Below are positions 3,933 to 61,432 of a DNA stretch of 64,000 bases, in pieces (position 1 is the first letter of the stretch; each line of letters starts with the position of its first letter). The notes beneath the pieces were generated by a model, which was given only the letters and a program-made list of their open reading frames with translations, made no database searches and was not told the origin of the DNA. The stretch comes from Paralichthys olivaceus (taxonomy: Eukaryota; Chordata; Actinopteri; Pleuronectiformes; Paralichthyidae). The stretch spans positions 10,737,001 through 10,801,000 of the forward strand of contig NC_091111.1 of NCBI RefSeq assembly GCF_024713975.1, given 5' to 3'. The position numbers and the translations under genes are program-made.

Positions 3933-4631
3933 GAGAGCAACAGCAGTGATTCTCAGGGAGAGACGGAGGAGAAGGTGACTCCTGCTGCTACCGAACTGGA
4001 TACGGAGTCCATCGCCAACACTGTGACCAGCACTCTCACTATGCAGGAGTACTTTGCGCAGCGAATGGCTCAGCTGAAGAAGGCTCGGGGACAGGACCCA
4101 AGTGCAACATCCAGGGCGGACGCAGAGACCAGCGAGACGTCAACTCCATCCGAGGAACCCATCCACAGTACTAACAATGATACGGAGGAGCCTAGGAAGA
4201 AAAAGAAGAAGAAAAAGAAAAAGGCTATGAATGAGTTGGAAGTGGTAGAAGACAATTGTAGTTCTCCCATTGTAGTGGAAGAGGACGAGAACCAAGAGCA
4301 GGAACGTTTAAAGAAAAAGACGAAGAAAAAGAGGAAAATGGCAGAAAACAAAGAAACTACAGATGAGAACTGCAGCTCCACCTCTGGTGTGGAGCAGAAC
4401 TTTGAGGAGCAGAACTGTGAGGAGCGGCCTCCCTCCAAAAAGAAAAAGCTTAAAAAGCACAAAAAGGAAACCGAGCTATTAAACGGCCACGAGCCATCTG
4501 AGGATCAAACTGTAAAATCAGAGGTTGTTCCAAAAAAGAAAAACAGAGAGGAGGAGGAGGGCGATGTTGTAGTGGTAGAGGAGAAGAAACCCAAAAAAAA
4601 CAAGAAAAAGAAGAAGAAACGCCAAGAATAG
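3933..4631 (+). CDS. pinx1: PIN2/TERF1-interacting telomerase inhibitor 1, last coding exon (C-terminal 232 residues)
   Basis: This is the terminal exon of pinx1. The AG acceptor ends at 3932, the exon enters in phase 0 and the TAG stop is at 4629-4631. The conserved block TMQEYFAQRMAQLKKARG lies at about 4039-4092 and corresponds to the family's (T/F)xIQEYFAKRMAALK segment. The rest is low-complexity, with Lys runs (about 4195-4225, 4310-4335, 4435-4470 and 4590-4622) separated by acidic Glu/Asp stretches. This matches the basic C-terminal tail of PINX1. In other vertebrates the protein is nucleolar, carries an N-terminal G-patch (outside this window), binds TERF1 and TERT, and has a role in rRNA maturation. 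The Lys clusters would serve as nucleolar-localisation signals (inference). Having sox7 next, on the same strand, matches the human PINX1-SOX7 neighbourhood. An open frame from GTG 3975 is not a real start. Confidence 0.85.
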   Translation, partial: ESNSSDSQGETEEKVTPAATELDTESIANTVTSTLTMQEYFAQRMAQLKKARGQDPSATSRADAETSETSTPSEEPIHSTNNDTEEPRKKKKKKKKKAMNELEVVEDNCSSPIVVEEDENQEQERLKKKTKKKRKMAENKETTDENCSSTSGVEQNFEEQNCEERPPSKKKKLKKHKKETELLNGHEPSEDQTVKSEVVPKKKNREEEEGDVVVVEEKKPKKNKKKKKKRQE

Positions 4632-8242: not shown

Positions 8243-10444
<2,202 letters not shown>

Positions 10445-24150: not shown

Positions 24151-24179
24151 TGTTTTTTTATAATCTCTTTCAGCCTGGG

Positions 24180-24282
24180 ATGAATGGGAGCCATGCAGAT
24201 ATGCGGTGCACCACCTTCCCCTAGGCAGTTCAGGAGAAACATGACAACCTCCTTTCACCTCCCTCTACGTCTGCTCACGTGA
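24180..24282 (+). promoter_or_regulatory. rp1l1: Two short upstream ORFs in the rp1l1 leader
   Basis: Downstream of the exon acceptor (AG 24172-24173) an ATG at 24180 opens 14 codons and stops at TAG 24222-24224. A second ATG at 24241 opens 13 codons and stops at TGA 24280-24282. The second is in the same frame as the main start at 24319, so its TGA is the only stop separating the two. Such uORFs could lower translation of the main frame (inference). The second may instead be the relic of an older start. Confidence 0.5.
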
Positions 24283-24318
24283 GATCCTTCGTTGAGAGCA
24301 GAGCCGCTTCCTTTCACG

Positions 24319-27300
24319 ATGTCCTCCCACAAACGCAGCTTTCAGTGCTTCAACGCTGTTGGTGGTGAAGGTGTCCACAAGTCTGGTACCCGCCTCCCCA
24401 GGATCCCCCACCATGGCATGGTGGCCCACCATGAACCTCTGGAAATGTGCGGCCTTTGCTCTGAATATAGACACGCCCAGGCCCTGGAGGCACTGGAGAC
24501 GCAGGTTTTACCTTTGTATCAAACTCACACGCCGCATCACCACCACGCACACCGGTGTGTTCTTGGGAGGCCAGCCAGGCCCAATGAGGTGCATTCAGGC
24601 CATGGCCGACATAGTCATCATCACAGGTACAATAAGAGGGTGATACTGGTGAAGAACAGCGACCCCTCTGTCAGGAAGACCATCGTGTTGCACCACAGGA
24701 GTATACGCAGCTTCGGGCTTTTCTTAGAGGAAGTTTCTGAGCTCATGCAGTACCACATCAGGAAGCTCTACACTCCGGAGGGCCGCAAGGTGAGGTCATT
24801 AACACCCGGAACTAGTAGTACTATATAAAGATATGCTGGCATGTACTTTGATGTTCTCTTCCTGCAGAGTTTGGGAGTACTGTGCTTGAATGACATTTTA
24901 TTCAGCTAAATGATCAGGAAACTTGTTTTTCAGGGAGGAAGTTTAAACCTTCCCTCGTGGTTTAATGAACTGGAAAGGAAGGAAATCTGAAATAGTACTA
25001 TGAGTTTCGTTTATCTAAATAATTTAGCTTTAACACTAAAAAGTATGTTACTTTCAAGTATTTGTATTAATTACTGTTGCTGCCTGATTTTGAAAATTAG
25101 ATTAAAAAACAAAACAAAACAAAAACTATTTGAAAGCTTTGTCCCTAAACAATTTATACACCATATTTAAAAAAAAACTGTGTAAAACCATTGCTGGAAT
25201 ATTTAGGTATTATATTCTAAAATCCCAACACCTTATTATGACACCATCAAAATCTACATGATTTTTCTGCGCCATCTTCAGACATGTTCGCAAGAAATAC
25301 ACTCATACGTACACATGTTTCATATCGTTTTCACTTGGTACTTTGTTATAATGTAAATCTAGTTGGATAAATATTTTGAGTGTGTGCATGAGGGGATAAA
25401 ACAGGGATATTCCATCTCACACACATAAATACACACACGTTCAGATTGTGGGTATCTCTCAAAATCCCATTAATCTTGGTCAAATCAGAGCTATTTTTGA
25501 GGGAGAAGAAACAGGTCAATGTTGAAACTCCACTCTCCTGCTTTGATACCAGAGGTGTCTTAGAAATGTGTCTTCCACAGTGGTAATTAATTATGTTCAC
25601 CGTGGTCACACAAAGCCCAGGGTGAAGCCATTCATCTGCCTTTAGCAACAGTGGATTTAAAATTCAAAAACTGCACCATCATCAAAACTGAATACTCACC
25701 GTCGAAATCACTTCAACAGAACTATCAATATTTTTACTCTGTATGTGTTTCAGAGCTGTCAGTAGAAAAAAATAGTATTCAATATTAAGTGTCATGACAA
25801 AATGAACACAAACTTACATAAATGAAATAAAAAGAAATAGCAGTATTTTATACACACAAGTTTGAAATTATACGAACATTTTTATTTAATGTTTGATTAT
25901 CTATGCTTCCTGTAATTCTTATATATATCAATTTTTAATAAAAAAGTGTACTAATATTAGAACAAAAAAGGTGGCATGTTCTTTTAAAGCATCTGAAAAT
26001 GTAAAAAATCACCCACAGCGAAGATACGCAACCGTTAAATGATAAGAGGTCTAGAAATGGATGGATGGATATGTTTTTAAGCATGGAGGCAAAATACAGA
26101 GATACTTTTATTAGGCAAATGTTTGGAGACTTTAAAGAAACAAGTCAGTACACAAATGAACAGTTGGACAGCATGATAATTGAAAGAGACTCATTTCCCT
26201 CCTGCATGTCAGTAATCCACTTTTGTTTCTGTTGTATTATAAACTGTGAGAGTAGGAGTTGTCGAAAAAGCAAAAATAAAGCAATGTGATATGCTGTTAC
26301 AATTTTCAGACCACAGTGTTTCCTTGTCTGTCACATTCAGTCATCTAATTTTACACATTCACGCTTGCAAGCTTGCTGCAGCACTGAGCAATACCCACCG
26401 CTCCTGCTAGTGACAATGGAGAAAGAATGCATCGTCATCTGGTGAAGTTGCAGAGAGATCATCCTGGATTATCTGGTCCTGACTCACTGCTTGACTCAGA
26501 GCCTTCCTCTACAGGGATTTAGAGCCCTCAACAGCACAAATGAGAAGACAATACCTCGATTAAATCAACATACTGGCCTCATAACACATGTTCCTTGTAT
26601 GTTAGTCCTATGTTTTATGAAGCAAACAAGACTAAAAGTTGATTATTAGACACATAAAAAAACATTAACGCTTTAATTGATGCTATTTGGGTAATAAACT
26701 ATAGAATTACAGCCCTGCGGTTGTATTCCTCTGCCAACCGGTGCAGTTTCAGTCCTTTCAGGTGTTCTTGACATGTTGGATTGACAATAATATGAGGTCA
26801 CAGTGAACTTTGACCTTTGACTCCTGAAAGTAAACATTTGTGCCAAATTTAAAATAATTATCTCAAAGTGTTTCTGAGATGTGGGTTTTCACAAGGCCAA
26901 AAACATGTTTCATAAGAAAACAGTGACCTTGACTATTGACCACCCCTTTTACATTACAAATAGGTGTTTCTTTTACTTCCTTAGTGTTCTGTATTCAGTT
27001 CGCTCACACGGTGTGCCCAGATATGCTGACAAGGTACTTTTTCAAAGGTTGGTGAAGCAGTGTCTCTGTAAGAAAAACTTTATACAGACTGAAAAAAATA
27101 TAGTGCGAGGTTGGGAATGTCTGCATTTTTATATGACCACAACATTATCCAGCAATCTTCCTTCTAAAATCCCCGAACTGCTTCAATTATGCCAAGTCAA
27201 ATGTATTTAATCCAAACTGCTTCAAACCGCAATGTGTGAAAACATTTAGACTGTTCCTGTTCACTCAGTAAACTGACTCACTCTTCATTCATTTCTGTTC

Positions 27301-30300
27301 TTTTGTTTCAGATCGACAATGTTCAGAGTCTCCTTCAGTGCCCCAGCGTCCTTGTATGTGTGGGACGTGAGCCTTCTCATCCTTCCATCATGGAGAATTT
27401 TAGGAAAACATCTAATGACAAACTTCCGAAATTGAGTGGGAGGTCACGCGCCCATGGCTGCGACGAAGGACATGAGGGTAAGAGAAAAGATTCATTTATT
27501 AATTTAATTTTTGACATAATTCTGGATACAAATTCCTCTACATTGTTACTTCTGCCACAGGGGTTATGTTTTCGCCCCTGACCATTGGTTTGTTTGATTA
27601 TAAATGATTTCTAAGTGTGTGACATCTGGTACGGCTTCATTGACTTTAAGGAAACTGTTGGCACTGGTATGCACTCCATAGAGTGTCATTGCATAAAAAA
27701 AACTCTAGTACTAAACTCCCATCACAGTAAATATCATTTTTGTTGATAATTTGAGATAGGCTTTGACAGTAATATTCCTGCATTCCCCTTTTTATCTGAA
27801 TCCACTTTTTCTTCGTCATACCCCTCCTCTCTCTACCCATGTGGGATCTTGCTGCAAGTCAGACAGACAAACAACAATGAAAACATAACCTACTTGGTAG
27901 AACTGACTTAGTGCTTCTTAAGCTATATCTAAATGATTATTGTTTCATAATTTTATGGTAAACTATGAACAAAAGACATCTAATTCTATGTTCTTTTTTT
28001 TCTGTCTCTATTCCTATCCATTAACTAAATGGTAAATCAAGGACCAACAATGACAAGTGTCAACAATTCAAACCTGGAATCTGACAACAGATCTAACGGC
28101 CACTCAGTGTCATCTGATAAGTCATTACCAAATGAAACTAATTCTCCAGAGAATGTGGATTCACCCACTGGTGATGGACTGAGACATGATGATATAGAGA
28201 AAAAGGTTCGCGTCAATAAAGACGGGAGTTTGTCTATGGAAATGAAAGTGCGATTCCGACTCCAAAATGATGAAACATTACATTGGTCAACACGAGTAAA
28301 AAAGAAGCCAGACAGACCCTGTGAGTTCCTCCAAGGGCACAATAACTCATATTTTGCACATGTTAGTGATATAAGCTATTCAGAGTCAGAAAATCTCTCT
28401 GCTGCTGAACAAGATGCGGGTTACCTCACCAGGCGTTACCAAAGACATGCAGAGGAACCTCACTGCCCTCACTGCTATAGTCAATGTCAGGATTATGACA
28501 TCTGGAAAAATATCCCAGGTATGCATGGAGCGGGTCGCTGCATTCGAACATCCAGCTCGAGTGCATCCTCGCATACAATGGTCTCTAGAAAGATGGTGGT
28601 TGAAAGGCAAACTGTGTCTAGATCAAGTGATGACCATGCGGAACAAGTGGTGGAAACCCAGACTGTTGAAGCAGCTGAAACTGTAGAGTACTGCACCATC
28701 AGGAGAGGCACTTGCTCACCAAAGTGCAATGAGCAATCTTCCACATTAGACAACTGTGACGAGTGTGCTGATGGTTCCCCAAATGATCAGGTCAAATCCT
28801 TAGAGCAAGAAGAACGAGCAGGATCTGCTCCTAGTGCTTCTTCACAAATATTAACAGACCATGAGGAGGCTGAAAATGATGAAGTTGATGATGTCCCACA
28901 AAGTGCATCAAGAGGATCTTCTCAGAATAGTAATGTTGCAATGGATGAGACCACTGAGAGTGCAGGGTTAGATGAAGGCTCACCAACCCAGCAGTTATCA
29001 ACCAATTCATCAGTGACCTCTAACAAATCAGGTGACTCAAAAACCTTACACACTTGTCATTGTGGAGTATCAGAGAATGATACAAAAGGAAAAACCAAGG
29101 CCCAGGATGAGGAAGAAGATGAGACGCAAAGAGATCAGTCAAGTGCCATGTCTGTTATATCAAATAGGTCTGAAGAAAAACAGAATACAGAGTCCGAGGA
29201 TGTAGTGGAGAAAAGATCCAAAAGTGCCATGTCAGTTCGATCAAATACCTCAACAAAGTCCACATCTCACGGTGACACCGAAACACAAGCAAGACCTTTG
29301 AGTAGCATGTCTGTAAAATCATTGAAGTCAGAGGTGACAGCTGAAGAATGTAAATCAGAGGTTTCTGATGATGAAAGAGCATTGAGTTCCATGTCTTCCA
29401 AATCAAAAGCTTCTAATAAATCAAAGAGATCAGGAGTCTCTCCTTTACCAGATAAAGAACAAGATGAGGAAGAATCGGCGGAATCCAAATTAGAAGAATC
29501 TGCAGAGGAGAGCATTCAGAATCCAGCTGAAGTAAATGAGAATGAAACTGAACAGAGAGCACAAAGTGCAATGTCAGTGAAGTCAAATGTTTCTGCTAAA
29601 TCTAAAACATCGAGAACTTCCGAAGCTCCACCTAAAGATAATGATGAAAATCTTGAGGAAGAAGAGGAAGCTGAAGAGGCTGTTGGAGATCAAGACAGAG
29701 TTCCAAGTGTCATGTCATCTAAATCAAATACCTCCGCAAGATCTACACATTCAAAAGCATCTGAGCCTAAAGATGAAGAAACTGCAATGGATAATACTCA
29801 AGACAGAGCATTGAGTGCCATGTCATCAAAATCAGCGAAATCGAAACACTCTAATAAGGAGGCTCAACAAATAGCTGACGAAGAGCAAAATGCAGATGAA
29901 AGAACAACTAGTGATTTATCAGGAGTGTCCTCGAATAAAGCTGATGATGAGGAGGAAGTAGCGCAGACCTTGGAGAGAGCTCCAAGTACAATATCAGCAA
30001 AATCCATAAAGTCAAATGCATCAGCAAGCTCCCGAAAATCTAGAACCTCTGAAAGTCTTAAAAATGCAGACGAAAATTCAGAGGAAAATCAACACAGATC
30101 CAAAAGCAGCATGTCAGAAAAGTCAAATACATCTGAAAAATCAACAGTGTCTGCTCAAAATGAGGAAAGTGAAAGGGCACTGAGTGTAATGTCTGCAAGG
30201 TCTGTCAAGTCAAATGTATCTGCAACATCAGGAAAGTCAAAGGCCTGCGAGGACATGAGTAAAGTAAATACTGAGGATGTAGATGAGCACTCTGTAAGAG

Positions 30301-33300
30301 CAACTAGTGCAATGTCAGCTAGGTCTAATTTATCTGAAGGAAGACCACAAAGCACATTGTCAGTCAAGTCAGCAAAATCAGCAAAGTCAAACATTTCTGC
30401 AAAATCTAAATCTTCTGAAGTTCCTAATAAAGAAAATGATCACGAGGATCGAAATGATGTAGAGCAAACTGAAGAAAGTGCATCAAGCTGCAACAATGAG
30501 GCAGAAGAAAACTCCTGTGTTTCAGCTGAGGAAAGTCCTGACAAAAATGATGATGCTGAGGAAAGAGCATCCTGTGCCGATTCAGAAATATCAGTCAAGT
30601 CAAAATCTTCTGCAATGTCAAGCAAGTCAAACGCCTTTAAACATCAGTCTGAGGAAACCAACCATGAGAAAGAAATTGCAAAAAGAGCAACAAGCGCAAT
30701 GTCAGCAAAATCAACTAAGTCTACCGTCTCTGCAGCTTCTAAAAAATCTAAAACTAGTCAGGTTCTTCCCAAATGTAATGATGATGTTTGTGATGAAGGA
30801 GATGCTACTAGTGAGAGATCACCAAGCTGCATGTCAGATAAATCAGCCAAGTCAAACATTTCAGCACGATCAAGTGACTCAAAGTCCCACAACGGTTCAG
30901 GTAGAGAAGATGAGGAAGAGAGAGTAACTAGTGCTCTGTCAGTCAAATCTGCCAAATCAACACGATCAAATACTTCTGCCAAATCCAACAAGTCGAAGCC
31001 CAGTGACGTTTCAGCTGGAGAAAATGCTACGGATGATGCAGAGCATGGAGAAAGGGCTCAGAGCAATCTGTCAACTACATCTGTTAAATCTGCAAAGTCA
31101 AATGATACAGCAAGGTCTAAGAAATCTAGAGGTTCTGCAGCACCTTCTGAAACCTGTGGTGATGTCTCTGAAGAAACTGAGGAGGCTGAAGAGAGAGCGG
31201 CAAGCTCAGTGTCAGCCCGGTCAGCTGGGTCATGCATCTCTGCAACATCAAGTCAGTCAAAATGTTCTGCTCGAGGTCCAGCTGAAGAAGAGGAAACTGA
31301 AGAGAGAGCAGCAAGCAGCATGTCAGCCATATCAAACCAGTCACATGTTTCTGAAAGGTCCAACAAGTCTGCAGAGACAGCACTCTCAGTGAAATCTGCA
31401 AAGTCACATATGTCCACAAAGTCTGTGAAATCAACTGCTTCTGGAGCTCATTCTGCCAAAACTAATGGCATTCCTGATGAAGAAGACAGTGAAGAGGAAA
31501 CTCCAGACAGAGCACAGAGTGCAATGTCAGCCAAATCCACAATGTCTAATGAACTGGATGGCCCAGCTGAAGAGAGAGCTCCAAGTAATATTTCTGTTAA
31601 ATCGGTGAAATCAGCAAAGTCAAATGTTTCTACAACATCTAAAAGATCAACTATTTCTCAAGTTCCTTTGGAAGATGGTGTTGACCATTCTGAAGAGATA
31701 ACTGTGGAAGGGGAGAGTGAGGAGAGAGCAATGAGCTCAATGTCAGACCAGTCACATATTTCTGCTCGATCAAATAAGTCAAAATGTTCTATGGATGTTC
31801 CTGCAAAACAACACTCTGAGAAATCTGATGAGGAAACTGACAAAGAACTAACTGAGGAAAGAGCAGCAAGCAGCTTGTCTGTCTTATCAGTTCAGTCACA
31901 TGTTTCAAAAGTATCTGTTAAGTCTGCAGAGAGAGCACAAAGTGCTTTGTCGGTTAAATCAGCAAAGTCACATGCAACCTCAAAATCTGTCAAATCAAAT
32001 GCTTCTGAAGCTCATTCTGCCCAAACTAATGGCTGTCCTGATGAAGAAGATGGTGAAGAGGAAACTCAAGAAAGAGCACAGAGCGCAACGTCAGCTAAAT
32101 CTGTAAAGTCAACTGTTTCTAACAAATCCAACAAGTCCAAAGGACAGGATGGTCCACCTGAAGAAAATACATCTGATCACGAAGAGCGAGCTCCAACTAA
32201 TATGTCTGTCAGATCAGCAAAGTCTGCACGGTCAAATGTTTCAGTAGTATCTAAGCAATCAAAAGCCTCGGACATTCCCTCTGACAACAATACCGATACT
32301 CCAGAAGAGGTAAATGAAGACAAGGCAGATGAAAGCAGATCAGTGAGCTCCATGTCAATTCATTCACTCAAGTCAAATGTTTCCGCAAGATCAAGTAGGT
32401 CGAAACGCTCAGCTGACAAAAGCATTGCCAGACCCAGGTCACATAATTCTACAGTATCTATGACATCGAATGCTTCTAAAAATCCTGATAAAAATACTCC
32501 TGATGGGATTAATGATGAGGAAGAAGTTCAAAACAGAGCAGAGAGTGTAATGTCTGCAAAGTCAAATATTTCTGAAAAATCAGAAAACGCTCATGATTCT
32601 GATGATGTAAAAAGAGCTTCAAGCAATATGTCAGTTAAATCGGCAAGGTCAAATATTTCAAATAAATCTAAGAAATCAAAAGCTTCCGAAATCTGTTCTG
32701 AACACAGCACTGAAATTGCTGACAAAGAGCAAACCGAAGAAAGAGCTGCAAGCAGCATGTCAGTAAAATCAGTTCAGTCACATTTATCTGAGAGATCGAT
32801 GAAGTCTCACACCTCTGGTGTTAATATTGATGATACAGCTACATCTACTGAGAGAGCAGCTAGCGCCTTGTCAGCTAAATCAGCAAAGTCAAATGCTTCT
32901 GCAAAAGCAAAAGCCTCTGAAGTTTCTTCTGAAAAAAATGCTGGCCACTCTGATGAAGTGAATAGTGAAGATGATTGTCAAGTGAGACCACAAAGTTCAC
33001 TGTCAGATAAATCCACACAGTCAAACATGTCTGTAAAATCAAGTTGCTTGTCAACTAAGTCGGTCAAATCAAATATTACTATCAAATCTGTGACTTTCAA
33101 AGAAAACACTGATGATGCTGTAAAAATTGTAAAGCGAGCTTCAAGCGCAATGTCAGCCAAGTCAAACACATCTGCAAAAGCTTCTAAGGTTTCCACCGAC
33201 AATCATGATGAAGAAAATGCCAAAGTAAGTGAGGAGAGGTCATCCAGCGAAATGTCAGTCAAATCAAATATTTCAGTATCATCAAGAAGTACTGCATGTG

Positions 33301-36300
33301 AAGAACATAGCACCAATGAGGAGCAAACTGTGAAAAGACCAGCAAGTACCGTGTCAGCTAAATCAGCCAGATCTGTAAAATCAACACGCACAGATATTTC
33401 AAGCAAGTCAAAGTCCAGTAACTCGAAAGCCTCTAATGCTCAAGGGGAAGAAAATCATGAGGAGAATATGAAGCGAGCTCCAAGCAATAACTCCATCAAA
33501 TCAGCAAAGTCAGAAAAGTCCAATGTTTCAGCAGCATCAAAGAAATCCAAAGCTTCTGAGGTTCCTGCTGAGGATTGTGCTACTGAAGACAACAGTCCTG
33601 AAAATGTTAACAATGAAGACGATGCTGCAAGTGATGCTGAAAACAGGGCACAAAGTGTCAGATCAAATAAATCACTGAAGTCTAATGGAAAGTCAAGTCT
33701 GTCAAAAACCCCTGAAATTTCAGATGAAAAATGTGCAGCTGATTGCAAAGACACTGACGAGGGAACAGAAAGTTCAATGTCAATCAAATCATCAAAGTCT
33801 GATTGGTCTTTGAGGTCCAGGAAATCTAACATTTCTGAACAGGCAGCCGAAACGCACACCGAAGAGGTAGAGAGGACACCAAGTGTTTTGTCAATGAAGT
33901 CAAACATTTCTGCAAGAACCATTAAGTCCAACATGTCCAACATGACCTCTAGTGAAAGGACAAGGCAAGATGAAGAGGCTGACGAAAGAACAAATAGTGT
34001 CATGTCAATTAAATCAGCAAAATCCAATAATTCTTCAAAGTCAAACAAATTACTCCCTGCTGAAAATCCTGAGGTTCCCAATGAAGAAAATTGTGAAGAG
34101 AAATCGGAGATAGCATCAATTGCCACGTCAGGGAAGTCAGCTTTGTCTGTGAGATCCAAAATATCAAAATCCTCTGATGTGACAGCTGATGAAAATACCA
34201 GTGAAAAGGAGGGCAGAACACTCAGCTCTGTGTCTACAAAATCATATCAATCCGAAATGTTAAGCAGGTCCGAGTTCCCGGCTGTGACGGTTGAGGAAAC
34301 TGAAGACAGATCATCATCAACAAAGTCAAAGGTTTCAGTTCGTTCAAAAATGTCCACAACATCTGAAGTCAAACAAAATAAAAGTCGGCCTCACAGTTCT
34401 TTATCTGTCAAGTCAAATCTGTCCAATAAATCTCAAAGATCCAAAACAACTGATATTTTAACAGGTGAAGATGTGGAAAATAAAGAGGAACTGAACATGC
34501 CAACAGATATTCCTGAGGAGGACATGGTAAATCCTGAAAACAAGAGTACATCTAGTTTTCACGGGGACGAAAAACAAGCTACAATCGATAAAAGGAGTTG
34601 CCAATCTAAGAAAAGCAAGTCAAGCAGGGCAGACACAAAAACTCCTATCGCAGAGGATGTTGTAGTAACATGTCAGAGTGATCACAAATCCAGACATCCA
34701 GAGAAAGGACCCTCTGGTAGCAGGAGCATCACAGACAACAAAAGTGACAAAAGCAGCAAAAGCAGGTCAAAGAATGCAGATGAGTTTGAACTAGTGCCAT
34801 CTAGCCTTCCAAATGCATCCCCAACTGAGGTTGTCAACGAATGGCTGAAATCAATAACTACAGATGGAGATATGTACGAAATGGAGGAACTAAATGAGAA
34901 CTGCGATGGACAGAAATGTGTCACAGAGGGAATCAATGGAATAGAGCATAGTGAGAGCAATAATAACTCTGTGGCTGAGATTGCAAACGATACAAATGAA
35001 GGGATGAACAACGACTGCCAAACAAGCATAGAGGCACCAAATGCAAATACGAACTGTACTCAAAGTGATGATGGCTCAAAAATATTCCACTCTTCTGTAC
35101 ATGTGATGAAAGTACTTTTAAGCCCAAAGCTCGACAGATGTAACAGCTTACCAGAAGTTTCTCCAGTGTATGGACGTAAACTAAGCACTTCAGCCAAAGG
35201 TCTTCTGGACAGTCTTGTGAAGTTACAGTTAATCGACCACGATCCAAAAAATGCAAATGAAAAGGATGTACGATACCAAGAGCTGATGAATATTCTTAAG
35301 ACTCTTTGGCTTTGTGATCCACCAGAAAATGAAGATATTTTAAAGAAGGATGACCACCATTCTGTGGATGATGAGTTCAATCATGCGTCTTCCTCTGGTG
35401 TGGACGTCAACAGTGGCTCCACAGGCTCTGGGAAGAGTAGCGATGGTGCGAATGCAAGGAAAGTACAAGAAGTCTGTGAAGGTGAAGCCGACAAATGTCC
35501 ACAATGTACACCTGAGAGAGACATAGAGGGGATATATGAGGAAAAACAAAAGGAAGATGATCCAGAAACAGATGACACAATTAGAAATAATGATAGTCCA
35601 AGAGAACTACCTGAAACACCACCCTCCTCAAGCAAGAGTTCGGGAAATGACAGCAATGGCCAAAAGGTCCCTGAGGAAACTGAAACAGATTGCCAAGAGG
35701 ACTCCAGTTCTGGTAGTCCTCCCCTCACAGAAAGAGCAGAGTTAGCCAAGAGGATTTCTCAAGATCCTGATCCTGTTTGGGTCCTAACCTTATTAAATAA
35801 AATAGAGAAGCAGTTCATGATGCATTATATCAATGCAATGAGAGAGTTCAAGGTTCGATGGAACTTGGATAATAATGAACAGCTTGACATGATGATTAGT
35901 GAACTTAAAACAGAGGTCCACAGAAGAATCCAAACCAGTATAAACAGAGAATTGAGAAAAATCCAAGGTCGAGCAGGCCTCCCGAGACCTCCTAAAGAGG
36001 CGATGTCACGTACTTCGACGTCACAAGCAGAAGAGAGAAGACGGAGGCTGAAGATTATGCTCAAACAATCGGTTGATCAACAAGCAGAAAGAAGTGATGA
36101 TTCAGCAACAGGCACATCGTACAGTGACCAGCGCAGTGAGAGTGATGATTACTGTCCATGTGAAACGTGCATTAACAAAAAAATGACATTTAGGCCACCA
36201 CTTCCTGCAGAAGTTATGAATATCGCACCCCTTGCCATGGACTTTGATCTGAAGAGGATTCTGGTGATGAAGAACAATGCTCCTGGCAACACACAGGCAA

Positions 36301-39300
36301 TCAACTGTGCAAATCACTCTGATAATGATACTGACTCAAAGGATGCACAGACACTTGTAGAAAATGTTATTGCCAAAGCTGTACGAGAAGTGGAGGGGGA
36401 TGAAGCACACCTTGCTGCCAAGGAAAACCTTGCAGCTGCAGAAGAGGAAGAACCTGGTCATGCGTCTCGCCAGCCAGGTGAAGATGTTTCAAAAACTGAA
36501 CACCAGTCTGACAAAGAATCTGCAGATATGAACGATGATAGAGCCTCAGACCATGAATCAGCAAAAGGATCATTAACTAAAGATGAGATTGCAGACGTAA
36601 ATCAAGATGAACTTCAAGAGGAGACTGCAGACGCCACTACAGCTCAAGATGAAAATGCAGCAGAGACCACTGCAGCTGCTACAAGTGAACATGAATGCGA
36701 TAAAGATGAGGCTGTGGAAGAGGGGACAGTCGATGATGAAGAGATCCCTGCCACCACAACTCATGAATCTGTAGAAGAGAACTATGACGAATCATCAAAA
36801 GAACCAGATGAAGATGCAACACTGGAAGACCACATGGCTGTCACAGGTGAAGATGAAATCACTGATGAGAATGCTGAAGATAAAATTACAACAGAAGAGA
36901 CTGCTGAGCATGCATCTGACAAAGATGAGGCTGTGGACAAGCACGATGAAGAGGTGGTTGCTGTCACCAGTGAAGATGAACTGAAAGAAGAGACTGTTGA
37001 AGCCATAACGACAGAAGAAAAAGATGCAGACGAACATGAATCTGACAAAGAAGAAGCTGTGGTGGAAGAGGCAGATGAAGACTTGGAAGAGACTGCTGCC
37101 GCTAGTGGTGATGATGATTCTGCAGAAGATTTAGATGCCACCATATGTAAAGGCGAAGCTGCATTGAATAAGAATGAAGCCACGGATGATGATCTGCTAA
37201 AGGAACAAACTATGGAAGCATCAACAGAAGATGAGCTTGAGGTAGAAAAGGAGATTGCTGCTACAAGTGAAGATGAAGTTGAAGAAGAGGCCACCACAGC
37301 CGAAGAAGAAAATGCAGAAGAGGAAAAAAATGAGGATTTGGAGGAGGAAACAAAAAGTGATAAAGAAAAGTTTGCATCCACCAGTGCAGATGAGTCTGCA
37401 GATGAGAGCAATGACACAGCTGCAGTTAGCGATTTATCAAGAGAACCAACTGAAGATGCAGAAACTGAAGATGAGCCGGCTGTAGAAAAAGAAATCATCA
37501 GTGAAGATGATTCAAAGTTAGAGACCACTGAAGATGAAAATCAAGCAGAAGCTGTGGAACCAGGGATGGTTGACGATGGAGAAGAGACTCCTGTCATCAG
37601 TGATGATGATGACTCTGCTGAAGATGCCATCACAAATGATGAAGAAACCACAGCCGAGAATGATGCTGCAGGTGACGAAATTTCAAAGGAAGCAGATGAA
37701 GTGGCAGCGACTGAAGATGAGTCTGCGACTGAAAAAGAGGCAGAAGTCACATCAGAGCTTGCAGAGGTTGAAGATGAAAATCCTGCAGAAGAGTCTGATG
37801 TGGCTGCAACATCTGAAGGTGTGGCCACTGAGGCAGAGATGGTTGATGATGGACAAGAGACTGCTTGTACAAGTGATGAAGATGAAGCTACAGACAATGA
37901 TGAAGCAACATCAGCTGATGTGGCTGCAACATCTGAAGATGAATCTGGCAAGGATGAGGCCACTGAAGCGGAGATAGTTGATGATGGAGAAGAGACTGCT
38001 GGCACAAACGATGAAGATGAAGCTAATGACAACAGTGAGGCAACACCAGCCGAAGATGAAAGTGCTGTTGAAAGAGATAGTGTTGTCAAAAGTGAGGATG
38101 AAGCCGAGGATAACAGCGCAGAAGAGGAGGCTGATGTTGTACACGAATCTGACAACGATGAAGCAGTGGAAGAAGAAGAGATTCCAGCCACCAGTGGAGA
38201 TGAGTCTGACACTGCTGAAAAAGTAGAATCTGAAGATGAGATATCTGGAGAACAAGATGAAATGACGGAAGAAGCAGCTGAAACCACTGCAGCTGAAGAG
38301 GAAACAGATGTGGCAGATACAACTGAGGAAGCAGGGACAACAGAAGATGTGGAGGAAACTGCTGCCAGCAGTGAAGAGGATTCTGCAGAGGGCACGGACG
38401 CCCCTACAAATGATGATGAAACTTCACAGGAAATTGAAGCTGAAGCTGGCCAAACAACTGAAGATGCAGGAGAACTTGAAGAAGAGCATGATGATACAGA
38501 AGCTGATGCTGAATCTACAAGAGAGGAAAGCTCCAATGTTGTGACTCAAAGTGAATCAGAGGAGGAGAACGAGGAATCAGAATCAGATGATGATGAATCA
38601 AACAATGCAACAACAGATGCAAATGATACCGAAGGAGAAACAGAAACTAAGGAAGAAGCTGCTGTGGCCACTGAAGCGGAAGAGGAAAATGCATCAGATG
38701 TTGCAGACGCAACTGACCATGAATCTGACAAACAGGAAGGAGGGACAACAGAAGATGTGGAGGAAATTGCTGCTAGCAGTGAGGAGAAGGACAAGGATGA
38801 TGAGACTTCACAGGAAATAGATAACACAGCTGAAGCTGGCAAAGACAGAGAAGAACTTGAAGAAGAGCATGATGATGTTGAAGCTGATGCTGAATCTAGA
38901 AGAGAGGAGGAATCAGAGGAGGAGAACGATGAATCACCCACAGATGATGATGAATCAAACAATGAAACAACAGATGCAAATGATACCGAAGGAGAAAAAG
39001 AAACAAAGGAAGAAACTGCTGTGGCCACTGAAGCAGAAGAGGAAAATGCAGCAGATGTGGCAGATGCAAGTGATCATGAATCTGACGAGGAAGCAGAGGA
39101 GGAATCAGAGGAGGAGAACGATGAATCAGCCACAGACGATCATGAATCGAACAATGCAACAACGACTGCAAATGATACAGAAGGAGAAAAAGATGATGAA
39201 ATGAAGGAAGAAGCTGCTGTGACCACAGAAGCTGAAGAGGAAAATGCAGCAGATGTGGCAGAGGCAAGTGGTCATGAATCTGACGAGGAAGCAGGGACAA

Positions 39301-40664
39301 CAGAAGATGTGGAGGAAACTGCGGCTAGTGGCGAGGAGGAGGAAGATGAGACTTCACAGGAAATTGATAACGAAGCGGAAGCTGGCAAAGATGGAGAAGA
39401 ACTTGAAGAAGAGCGAGATGATATTGAAGCTGATGCTGAATCAACGAAAGAGGAAAGCTCCAAAGCTGTAACTGAAAATGAATCCGAGAAGGAGAACGAA
39501 GAATCAGCCTCAGGCGATCATGAATCAGTAAATGATGCAACAACAGATGCAAATGATACAGAAGGAGAAGAGGATTCTTCAACATATCATAATGAGACTG
39601 CAGATGAAACGGCACAAGAATACGAGGCTGGAGAAGAGGATGAAGTGGCTACAGATGAAAATGAGAATTCAAGTGAAGTTGAAGAGGCATCGGCTGAAGA
39701 GCCTCAAGAGACAGAAGCATCTGAACAAAATGCAGAAAACAGTGCCACTGAAGACTTTGTTAAAGAAGAAGAAGAAGAAGGTGAAGATGAAGATGAGGAA
39801 AAACTAGAAGAAGGTGAGGAGTCTGAAGAGGCTGAGAATGAAAGGGAGGAATCAGCTGAAAGTGGAGAGGAGTCTGGAGGTGAAGATGGCACAGAGGCTG
39901 CAACAACAGCAGATGAGACTGGAGAACGAGAAACAGCGCAGGAAGACTTGGGAGAAACTGAAGTAGTGGGAAATGAGATTGCTAAAGGTAACGGCGGAGA
40001 AGAATCTGGTGCAGACGATGACTCTGCAGGAGAAGAGGTTGGAGAAACTGCAGACAACACTGAGGATGAATCTGCACCAGACAGCAGACAAATTACTGGT
40101 GAAGAAGATGAGGAGGATACAGACAAAAATCCTGTTGAAGCCGAACAAACACAAGAAGAAAGTGACATTGCTGCAGAGCAGCAAGAAGATGTGGAGGAAA
40201 TATCAGAGAAGAATGAAGAAAATGAACCAGTGGAAGATGTTGATGAAGATAATGATGGACAGACAAATATAACACAGTGTGAAAGTGCAAACATGCCAAA
40301 TGGAAGCAATGGTAATGATGAAGACAACGTCCATGCCTTCGAAGAAGAGGAGGAGGAAAGTGAGACACCCAATCCAGACTGGAGAGCAAACCAGGGAGAG
40401 TCAGCTGATGGAGAAGATGAGGCTGAGGAAGATGAGGAGGAATCAGAGGAAGAAACTGACGCAGAGCAAAATTTGGGTCCAAGCAAGATGAATGATCGAG
40501 AGGCAGCTAACAGTGCCGCTCTGGAACCAACAACTTTAATTCCTCTTGATACTTTAGGGAGAGTGAAGGCAGAATCTGATGATGGTGCTTTCGCTGATGT
40601 TGAAGATTCTGAGACTGAAACCAACAACCGAGATGAAGTCACGAGCTTCGGGTCAAAGACTTAG
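24319..40664 (+). CDS. rp1l1: Retinitis pigmentosa 1-like 1 protein, giant form (three coding exons, 4419 aa)
   Basis: The coding exons are 24319-24789 (phase 0 exit), 27312-27477 (phase 1 exit) and 28042-40664. The sum, 13,260 nt, is exactly 4420 codons. A doublecortin domain spans about residues 106-180 (KRVILVKNSDPSVRK, then KLYTPEGRK / IDNVQSLLQCPSVLV), with a His-rich stretch before it. The family block KVRVNKDGSLSMEMKVRFRL is at about 267-286. About 43 Ser/Lys repeats follow (576-2356). A conserved predicted-helical segment comes next (VWVLTLLNKIEKQFM, REFKVRWNLDNNEQLD, RRIQTSINRELRKIQGRAG; about 2790-2960). The remainder is a Glu/Asp tail. RP1 and RP1L1 bind axonemal microtubules of photoreceptors and organise outer-segment discs. 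Human RP1L1 has about 2400 residues and two DCX domains. Here the first DCX is not intact. RP1 itself is less likely because of the 8p23.1-type neighbours and acidic tail. Which teleost rp1l1 paralogue this is cannot be decided. Confidence 0.9.
26708..26905 (+). repeat. Degenerate teleost interspersed repeat in an rp1l1 intron
   Basis: Runs such as GAGGTCACAGTGAACTTTGA, TGACCTTTGACTCCTGAAAG, 'catttgtgccaaatttaaa' and 'cagtgaccttgac' match a dispersed repeat I recall from many teleost genomes. This copy is strongly diverged. Edges are approximate and no terminal repeats could be identified. Confidence 0.5.
27550..27900. mobile_element. MITE-like element with terminal inverted repeats in the last rp1l1 intron
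   Basis: GGTTATGTTTTC at 27562-27573 is exactly inverted as GAAAACATAACC at 27879-27890, enclosing 329 bp. Extended outward to 22 nt, the two ends still agree at about 17 positions (CTGCCACAGG... against CTACCAAGTA...). The interior is AT-rich and non-coding. This fits a small non-autonomous DNA transposon. The same terminus occurs alone at 24062 and at about 50630. No clear target-site duplication was seen. Confidence 0.55.
29130..34470 (+). repeat. rp1l1: Ser/Lys-rich protein repeat array in rp1l1 (about 43 units)
   Basis: A degenerate unit recurs with a core like E-R-A-x-S-x-M-S-x-K-S-x-x-S-x-x-S-x-K-S-K. Its units are separated by acidic spacers of about 10-30 residues (for example EVPAEDCATEDN). 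By hand I count about 43 cores over about 1,780 residues (576-2356). Examples are ERAQSAMSVKSNVSAKSKTS (the first residue is Q in one copy), KRASSNMSVKSARSNISNKS and DRALSAMSSKSAKS. At DNA level copies have diverged, so the array is old and probably under selection for composition. Many S-x-K/R-S sites would suit basophilic kinases (inference). Confidence 0.85.
38331..39600 (+). repeat. rp1l1: In-frame tandem duplications in the glutamate-rich rp1l1 tail
   Basis: The string GGGACAACAGAAGATGTGGA recurs near 38334, 38742 and 39294, with unit starts 408 and 552 bp apart (136 and 184 codons). A nested unit starting AATCAGAGGAGGAGAACG recurs at 38554, 38911 and 39103, with a diverged copy at 39481 (spacings 357, 192 and 378 bp). 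All spacings are multiples of three and copies are nearly identical over long stretches, so these are recent in-frame duplications. Human RP1L1 also has a length-variable Glu-rich repeat in its tail, but of 16-residue units. Confidence 0.85.
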
Positions 40665-60459: not shown

Positions 60460-60498
60460 GTTATAAAACTATATTGTAAGATCTGATTTCCTTCCACC

Positions 60499-60781
60499 GA
60501 TGATGATGATGATGATGATGACAACGATGATGGTGATGATGATGGTGATAATGATGGTGATGATGATGGTGATGATGAGGATGGTGATGATGACAATGGT
60601 TATGATGATGATGATGATGAGGGTGACGGTGATGATGTTGTTGTTGATGATGATGGTGACGGTTATGATGATGATGATGATGAGGATGGTGATGATGACA
60701 ACAGTTATGATGATGATGATGATGATGATGATGGTGATGGTTATGATGATGATGATGAAGATGGTGATGATGACAATGGTT

Positions 60782-60820
<39 letters not shown>

Positions 60821-60836
60821 GTGACGGTGATGTTGT

Positions 60837-60878
<42 letters not shown>

Positions 60879-60879
60879 C
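60499..60879 (+). repeat. (GAT)n-rich minisatellite, about 380 bp
   Basis: GAT units with GGT, GAC and GTT variants are organised in higher-order blocks (for example GATGGTGATGATGACAA recurring at about 60580, 60685 and 60760). The long methionine-rich frame across it is not a gene. Confidence 0.93.
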
Positions 60880-61432
60880 TTACTCATGTGTCAGACTGCA
60901 GTGGGGCTGCACGTGCTGGGAGCTGGTCCCATGTATAGAGTTCCAATCTGACGTGAACCGCCTGTCCCACGAGGCAATGCTCTCAGCTTATCAACATGAT
61001 TCATCCTCCTGATAACACGGTGTGTCTGGGGGAGCTGCACAGTGTATGATGGGCGAGGAGGAGGGGGAGGAGGAGGAGGAGGGTGTTGAATAAAACACTC
61101 CGGGCTTATTATACAAGCATCTATCATTTACCAGCTCAGTGACTATAAACAGGGCGTCAAATGTTGTGTTTGATGATGGCATCTCTCTCAGTCCCTCAAA
61201 CACAACACAATTCACTCCCTGTTGCACGACATCGCTCCTCACCACAACACTGCGGGTAAATATCATCACCTGCTGAAATATGAAAGCACTTTGGAGAGGC
61301 GTGTGCGTGCCTGGCGCACGGCGGCACCAGGTACAGGCACGCACAGCCGTCCAATGGAGAGCAGGGGATTAATCGAGGGTCTGGCTTAGCTGGGGGTGAG
61401 GCTACCGAATAGGAGGCGACTGCAGGATGACC

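Follow-up and report, generated by a model that had tools for sequence, protein, structure and literature searches.

An RP1L1-type gene of Paralichthys olivaceus that appears to have lost its first doublecortin domain within a retained exon

Results

Architecture of the gene

The stretch analysed here, referred to as the window, is C19:10737001-10801000 of the Paralichthys olivaceus genome (64,000 nt), and its plus strand carries an RP1L1-type gene, one of two such genes found in this genome, the other lying on C24. Tandem doublecortin (DCX) domains, with the first one (DCX1) intact, are a feature of the RP1/RP1L1 family that is absent from the window gene. What we observe is the loss of a recognisable DCX1, of which in-frame remnants are left, together with an intact second domain (DCX2) and tail in a continuous reading frame. 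The start exon of the gene, exon 2 by comparison with C24, spans 24174-24789, with an acceptor before 24174 (score 7.5) and a donor at 24790 (score 10.8); all splice-site scores given here rest on general consensus values. The donor, AAG/GTGAGG, falls at the same codon as AAG/GTAAGA of the C24 paralogue. An earlier note on this DNA, whose coordinates and translations agree with the sequence, had placed an intact second DCX domain in this exon, and its beginning is indeed found there in the main frame as a Pfam DCX match (PF03607, 37.1 bits) at 24685-24804 (C19:10761685-10761804), the last 15 nt of which lie beyond the exon end.

The remainder of DCX2 is encoded by exon 3 (27312-27477, donor placed by eye, frame continuous), so that the domain is split at EGRK/ID by the exon 2/3 boundary, just as it is in C24, another family feature. 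Exon 4 (28042-40664, acceptor placed by eye) encodes a giant tail with an open frame of 4,211 codons (12.6 kb), which has no Pfam match and is 58% identical to C24 over 136 amino acids. It also contains the conserved block that follows the DCX domains in the family, DIEK.V.VNKDGSLS.EM.VRFRLQNDETL.WSTR, with a proportion of nonsynonymous differences (pN) from C24 of 0.16; the name 'RP1 domain' is used in PMC7600334, and no tool assigned it to this block. An NCBIfam scan of three window proteins gave no match. Joined from Met 24319 (24319-24789, 27312-27477 and 28042-40664), the gene model encodes 4,419 residues with a single stop at its end.

Paralogues used for comparison

A Pfam DCX scan of the 588-Mb genome (25 contigs, E<=0.001) returned at least 23 matches, and among the matches listed the sole one on C19 is DCX2 of the window gene. 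Three RP1-family paralogues of the same genome, on C24, C17 and C16, were used for comparison. The closest is the RP1L1-type gene on C24 (sequence piece L009), which keeps both DCX domains, with an intact DCX1 of 67.6 bits in Pfam. Its DCX1 lies across two exons, after which come DCX2 and an exon 3 that shares its boundary with the window gene. The window gene matches this paralogue in DCX2, exon 3 and exon 4, the two genes being homologous in DCX2, the exon 2/3 boundary, the conserved block and the tail; they differ in that the C24 DCX1 is intact and interrupted by a 241-bp intron, which is not seen in the window. This intron is in phase 0 (L009 5931-5691, minus strand) between DDLSQK and VPLPFG. 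In the RP1-like genes on C16 and C17, a single exon holds DCX1 together with the beginning of DCX2, and because these exons are without the intron, it may have been gained in C24.

No intact first DCX domain is found in the window

Neither Pfam nor DCX1 profiles detected an intact DCX1 anywhere in the 64-kb window. A profile built from C16 and C17 alone recovers both DCX1 exons of C24, with best-domain E values of 5e-21 and 9e-14, and has no hit in the window at E<=1. With the three-paralogue profile the window exon reaches E=0.0038, a value partly owed to DCX2, and of all other stretches in the six-frame translation of the window (2,017 in total), the best has E 0.13 and lies in the linker part. 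The start exon has no Pfam match besides DCX2 in either of the two frames proposed to hold DCX1 debris. A profile from C24 alone does rank main-frame 24316-24486 first of the 2,017 stretches; its E of 8e-6 for the whole stretch comes from two parts, the DCX1 part alone having E 0.027. Two structural approaches gave no information on the remnant. AlphaFold2 on 24319-24786 alone returned a mean predicted local distance difference test score of 30.7 with all 156 residues below 50, and it says nothing on the remnant because the intact DCX2 is also below 50. Likewise, a PDB sequence search with the main-frame exon-2 translation (24283-24798) had no match at E<=10, which is uninformative because DCX2 was missed too. 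As read from these comparisons, the C19 copy is without a recognisable DCX1 and its working first domain is lost.

Remnants of DCX1 lie in the frame of DCX2

We compared thirteen 12-residue tiles of the C24 DCX1 with the window exon, keeping for each tile the best-scoring of three frames and using 2000 dinucleotide shuffles as the reference. Two distinct places stand above chance, and the remaining ten tiles stay at chance level, each equalled by 252 to 1729 of 2000 shuffles. The stronger place is MSSHKRSFQCFNA at 24319-24357, which begins with the proposed new start, an old internal Met with counterparts in the C24, C17 and C16 paralogues. The tile MSSHKRSFQCFN at 24319 was equalled by 0 of 2000 shuffles and the overlapping tile SFKCFDALLDDL by 4 of 2000. 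The earlier note had recognised HKRSFQCFNA as a DCX1 landmark, rightly so (tile MAVHKRSFKCFD, 0 of 2000 shuffles); the DNA here is identical to C24 at 34 of 43 nt (E=9e-5), in a match starting within 5 nt of Met 24319. The other place is EMCGLCSEYRHA at 24442-24477, the counterpart of GGCYLCSDRRQA in C24 (13 of 2000 shuffles, 13 tiles tried), within which the segment CYLCSDRRQAKP was equalled in 0 of 300 shuffles. Both pieces are in the DCX2 frame and in order, 39 residues separating KRSF from CxLC versus 46 in C24, the seven fewer being gaps of the alignment. The second piece gains weight because its frame, order and spacing agree with the first.

Between them, 24358-24441 is open in the main frame and corresponds to the middle of DCX1, with tiles at chance. 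This middle holds a small hairpin at 24408-24433, CCACCAT-GGC-ATGGTGG followed by CCCACCATG. A tandem duplication of ~57 bp behind the two LCS-like places was also considered, and no direct repeat was found. Downstream follows a His-rich linker (24478-24639), highly diverged from the C24 linker in a blastp alignment. A MAFFT global DNA alignment over the full exon is not reliable in its middle.

Translated and aligned with the rest of C24 exon 2, the main frame after FNA scores 40, a value matched by 11 of 2000 shuffles of its residues and by 16 of 2000 shuffles of the query. Scores in the other five frames range from 18 to 35, and none of 362 control pieces from the window reaches 40. With the shorter DCX1-only query the score is 35 (18 of 2000 and 12 of 2000 shuffles as good), reached by one of the 362 control pieces, which is this exon itself. 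Relative to C24, the first 14 codons from Met 24319 have pN 0.18 and a proportion of synonymous differences (pS) of 0.64, the exon-2 part of DCX2 has pN 0.28 and pS 0.60, and codons 15-105 (79 aligned) have pN 0.55 and pS 0.71, synonymous sites being saturated or nearly so. By these values the proposed start lies in a piece about as constrained as DCX2, and the remainder has largely diverged.

The upstream end of the domain is broken

A possible ancestral start ATG opens a 14-codon frame at 24180-24224 that ends in TAG, identified by alignment to the C24 start. When 60 nt at 24180 are aligned globally to that start, 3 of 1000 shuffles score as well; aligned locally, 24160-24318 gives no significant result (317 of 500), and a frameshift-aware alignment of 24170-24318 is weak (24 to 54 of 500). 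The probable ancestral start would now reach a stop after 14 codons. The in-frame TGA reported earlier is present in the DCX2 frame at 24280-24282, overlapping a possible donor, GTGAGA at 24279 (score 6.1). The frames of all five ATGs from 24170 up to Met 24319 stop by 24282, and stops interrupt the main-frame reading only upstream of 24319. Judging by sequence, DCX1 is destroyed at its beginning and open, though strongly diverged, over the remainder.

Frameshifts lower the contrast of the downstream alignment with shuffles

The earlier note had the domain scattered by indels over two frames, and we therefore examined its landmarks individually. Those of the GDP region are at chance (tiles AKRITFYKSGDS and YKSGDSQFGGVR, 562 and 484 of 2000 shuffles). 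For LLVVKVST, the best place anywhere for the counterpart LLDDLSQK scores 7, which 296 of 300 shuffles reach. FALNIDTPR against FGVRTVTTPR scores 12, with 214 of 300 shuffles equal or better, and the tile VTTPRGTNTIRH is likewise at chance (1055 of 2000); in the main frame the bases of FALNIDTPR read LCSEYRHAQ, which belongs to the second supported piece. The ALEALETQ/FYLC landmarks fared unevenly. The tile LEQLQDGGCYLC is at chance (1293 of 2000), and aligning 24484-24640 (LEALE..FYLC) under frameshift penalties of 4, 6 and 8 gave scores that 43, 10 and 17 of 500 shuffles equalled, versus 353 of 500 with frameshifts forbidden. The result at penalty 6 is the best remaining support for a two-frame view.

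Frameshift penalties of 4, 6, 8 and 30 were judged against shuffles; an alignment at penalty 5, run without shuffles, contained many shifts and was not judged. Over 24170-24640, the frameshift-aware comparison with C24 reaches scores of 91 (penalty 8) and 82 (penalty 12), neither of them equalled in 300 shuffles. For 24361-24640, the best contrast was obtained with frameshifts forbidden (score 42, 2 of 500 shuffles), and penalties of 8, 6 and 4 gave scores of 42, 50 and 78, with 26, 36 and 13 of 500. Measured against shuffles, the downstream alignment loses rather than gains from frameshifts. The degenerate DCX1 in an rp1l1-type gene, of which no intact copy was found in the window, has held up, and the scatter over two frames downstream of 24319 has not, both supported pieces being in the DCX2 frame. 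In profile searches neither frame has a Pfam DCX1 match, and the main frame ranks first with the C24-only profile.

Discussion

On balance, we think that the C19 copy has probably lost DCX1, starts at Met 24319 and encodes a 4,419-residue single-DCX protein, the start at this old internal Met being most likely as the simplest reading of the exon. A single frame would run from Met 24319 through the diverged remnant of DCX1 and the His-rich linker into the intact DCX2 and the giant tail. As a mechanism we suggest, more tentatively, that after a duplication the start moved inside DCX1 and the rest of the domain was kept open as a His-rich N-terminus, which would have turned a tandem binder into a giant single-DCX protein with its exon retained. 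The product is predicted to bind microtubules or tubulin through one domain, presumably still in the photoreceptor axoneme.

Several observations weigh against this interpretation. The main-frame remnant alone has no Pfam match, and of the three RP1-family queries only C24 is significant in the frameshift-aware comparison, C17 and C16 staying within shuffles. The second piece is modest alone, at 13 of 2000 in 13 tiles. The DCX1-only query over 24361-24640 was equalled by 11 of 500 shuffles without frameshifts (33, 21 and 43 of 500 at penalties 8, 6 and 4), and with the longer query after FNA another plus-strand frame, broken by stops, scores 35 versus 40. The 14 constrained codons are a small sample in which the alignment favours matching residues. 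Openness of 24319-24640 in its frame, seen in 192 of 3000 shuffles, is mildly unusual and weak evidence, and another plus-strand frame and a minus-strand frame are nearly fully open over the same interval. Finally, a splice model that removes the remnant is equally compatible with the frame.

In that model, translation begins at ATG 24184 and the donor at 24279 joins to 24402, 24471 or 24627, the old domain having become wholly or partly an intron. Each of the three joins leaves the frame unbroken between 24184 and the gene end and accounts for the TGA, with acceptor scores of 7.3, 5.3 and 4.7 in that order and a donor score of 6.1, to be set against the exon's own 7.5 and 10.8. The constraint on MSSHKRSFQCFNA is left unexplained by it, however, the 24627 acceptor is without a clear pyrimidine tract, and the scores carry the limits of general consensus values; we regard this as unlikely, though the most credible of the alternatives. 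A different upstream first exon could instead supply the start and splice into this exon or onto DCX2, leaving 24174-24640 partly untranslated, as the several acceptor-like sites within the exon and its five ATGs before 24319 would allow. We find this rather improbable, since no candidate exon was identified in the window, and no other six-frame stretch betters the linker hit of the three-paralogue profile; the intact DCX1 on a separate upstream exon that the earlier note had raised was likewise not found in the window.

Indels that scattered DCX1 over two frames, with the present frame being novel sequence on the old domain, would be consistent with the penalty-6 alignment of LEALE..FYLC, but apart from HKRSFQCFNA the named landmarks are at chance and the downstream alignment is worse against shuffles once frameshifts are allowed, which makes this very doubtful. 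DCX1 is lost, though probably not as two-frame debris. Errors of assembly or sequencing within a DCX1 that is otherwise normal, previously put forward as the main alternative, are the least credible explanation and hardly to be expected. The conserved blocks around YKSGD and VPLPFGVR-TTPRG stay within chance in all three frames, and stitching the two frames into one read produces no Pfam match at E<=10, whereas the C24 domain is readily detected; moreover, 24170-24640 contains one homopolymer of >=5, and the 12.6-kb tail is open.

The C19 and C24 genes probably stem from the fish genome duplication, which would have left two RP1L1 copies, the C19 one then losing its working first domain. SoxF exons and SH2/tyrosine-kinase exons are among the neighbours of the window gene on C19, and the C24 gene has XK-related exons at a distance of 10 to 20 kb. 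Together these would fit the surroundings of RP1L1 at human 8p23.1, and a duplication origin is therefore probable. The SoxF gene has two exons (window 8243-8587 and 9407-10441), with the HMG box split across both and Sox17_18_mid in the second. A lysine-rich open frame at 3933-4628 is Pinx1-like by eye only, with no Pfam or NCBIfam match, and a long imperfect triplet run at 60461-61012 has four listed frames reading poly-His, poly-Met, poly-Ile and poly-Asp. An open frame flanking the C24 gene, C8orf74-like by eye, had no Pfam match and was not used.

Single-DCX relatives and domain loss are already known; what would be new here is an RP1L1 copy whose DCX1 decays in place. In the parts of PMC1550402 available to us, DCLK3, DCDC1 and rodent FLJ46154 are single-DCX family members, and loss of a domain is termed 'domain death'. 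They resemble the window gene in having one DCX domain, but lost the other with its exon, whereas the window gene keeps the exon and the first half decays. Among titles and abstract openings found on fish RP1L1, in a literature whose subscription papers mostly fall outside the coverage, DCX1 loss is not described. The window gene could be the counterpart of zebrafish rp1l1b, a formerly annotated gene that PMC7600334, in the portion seen, says misses defining features and is almost twice as large. The likeness is one of size, 4,419 residues by our model versus 2,394 for zebrafish Rp1l1 (PMC7600334), and the comparison is by description only, the missing features not being named in that portion.

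According to the accessible text of PMC12203965, RP1 binds microtubules via its doublecortin domain, and RP1 and RP1L1 jointly regulate photoreceptor axoneme stability. The separate contributions of DCX domains are described as controversial in the text of PMC8352597 at hand, with cited work in which isolated domains bind microtubules ineffectively; single-DCX proteins can promote microtubule assembly according to PMC1550402. A natural single-DCX RP1L1, if true, would help to test the role of each DCX domain. The choice of fish rp1l1 copy as a model of human RP1L1 disease would be affected as well, since the first DCX domain is where PMC7600334 locates the most frequent occult macular dystrophy mutation.
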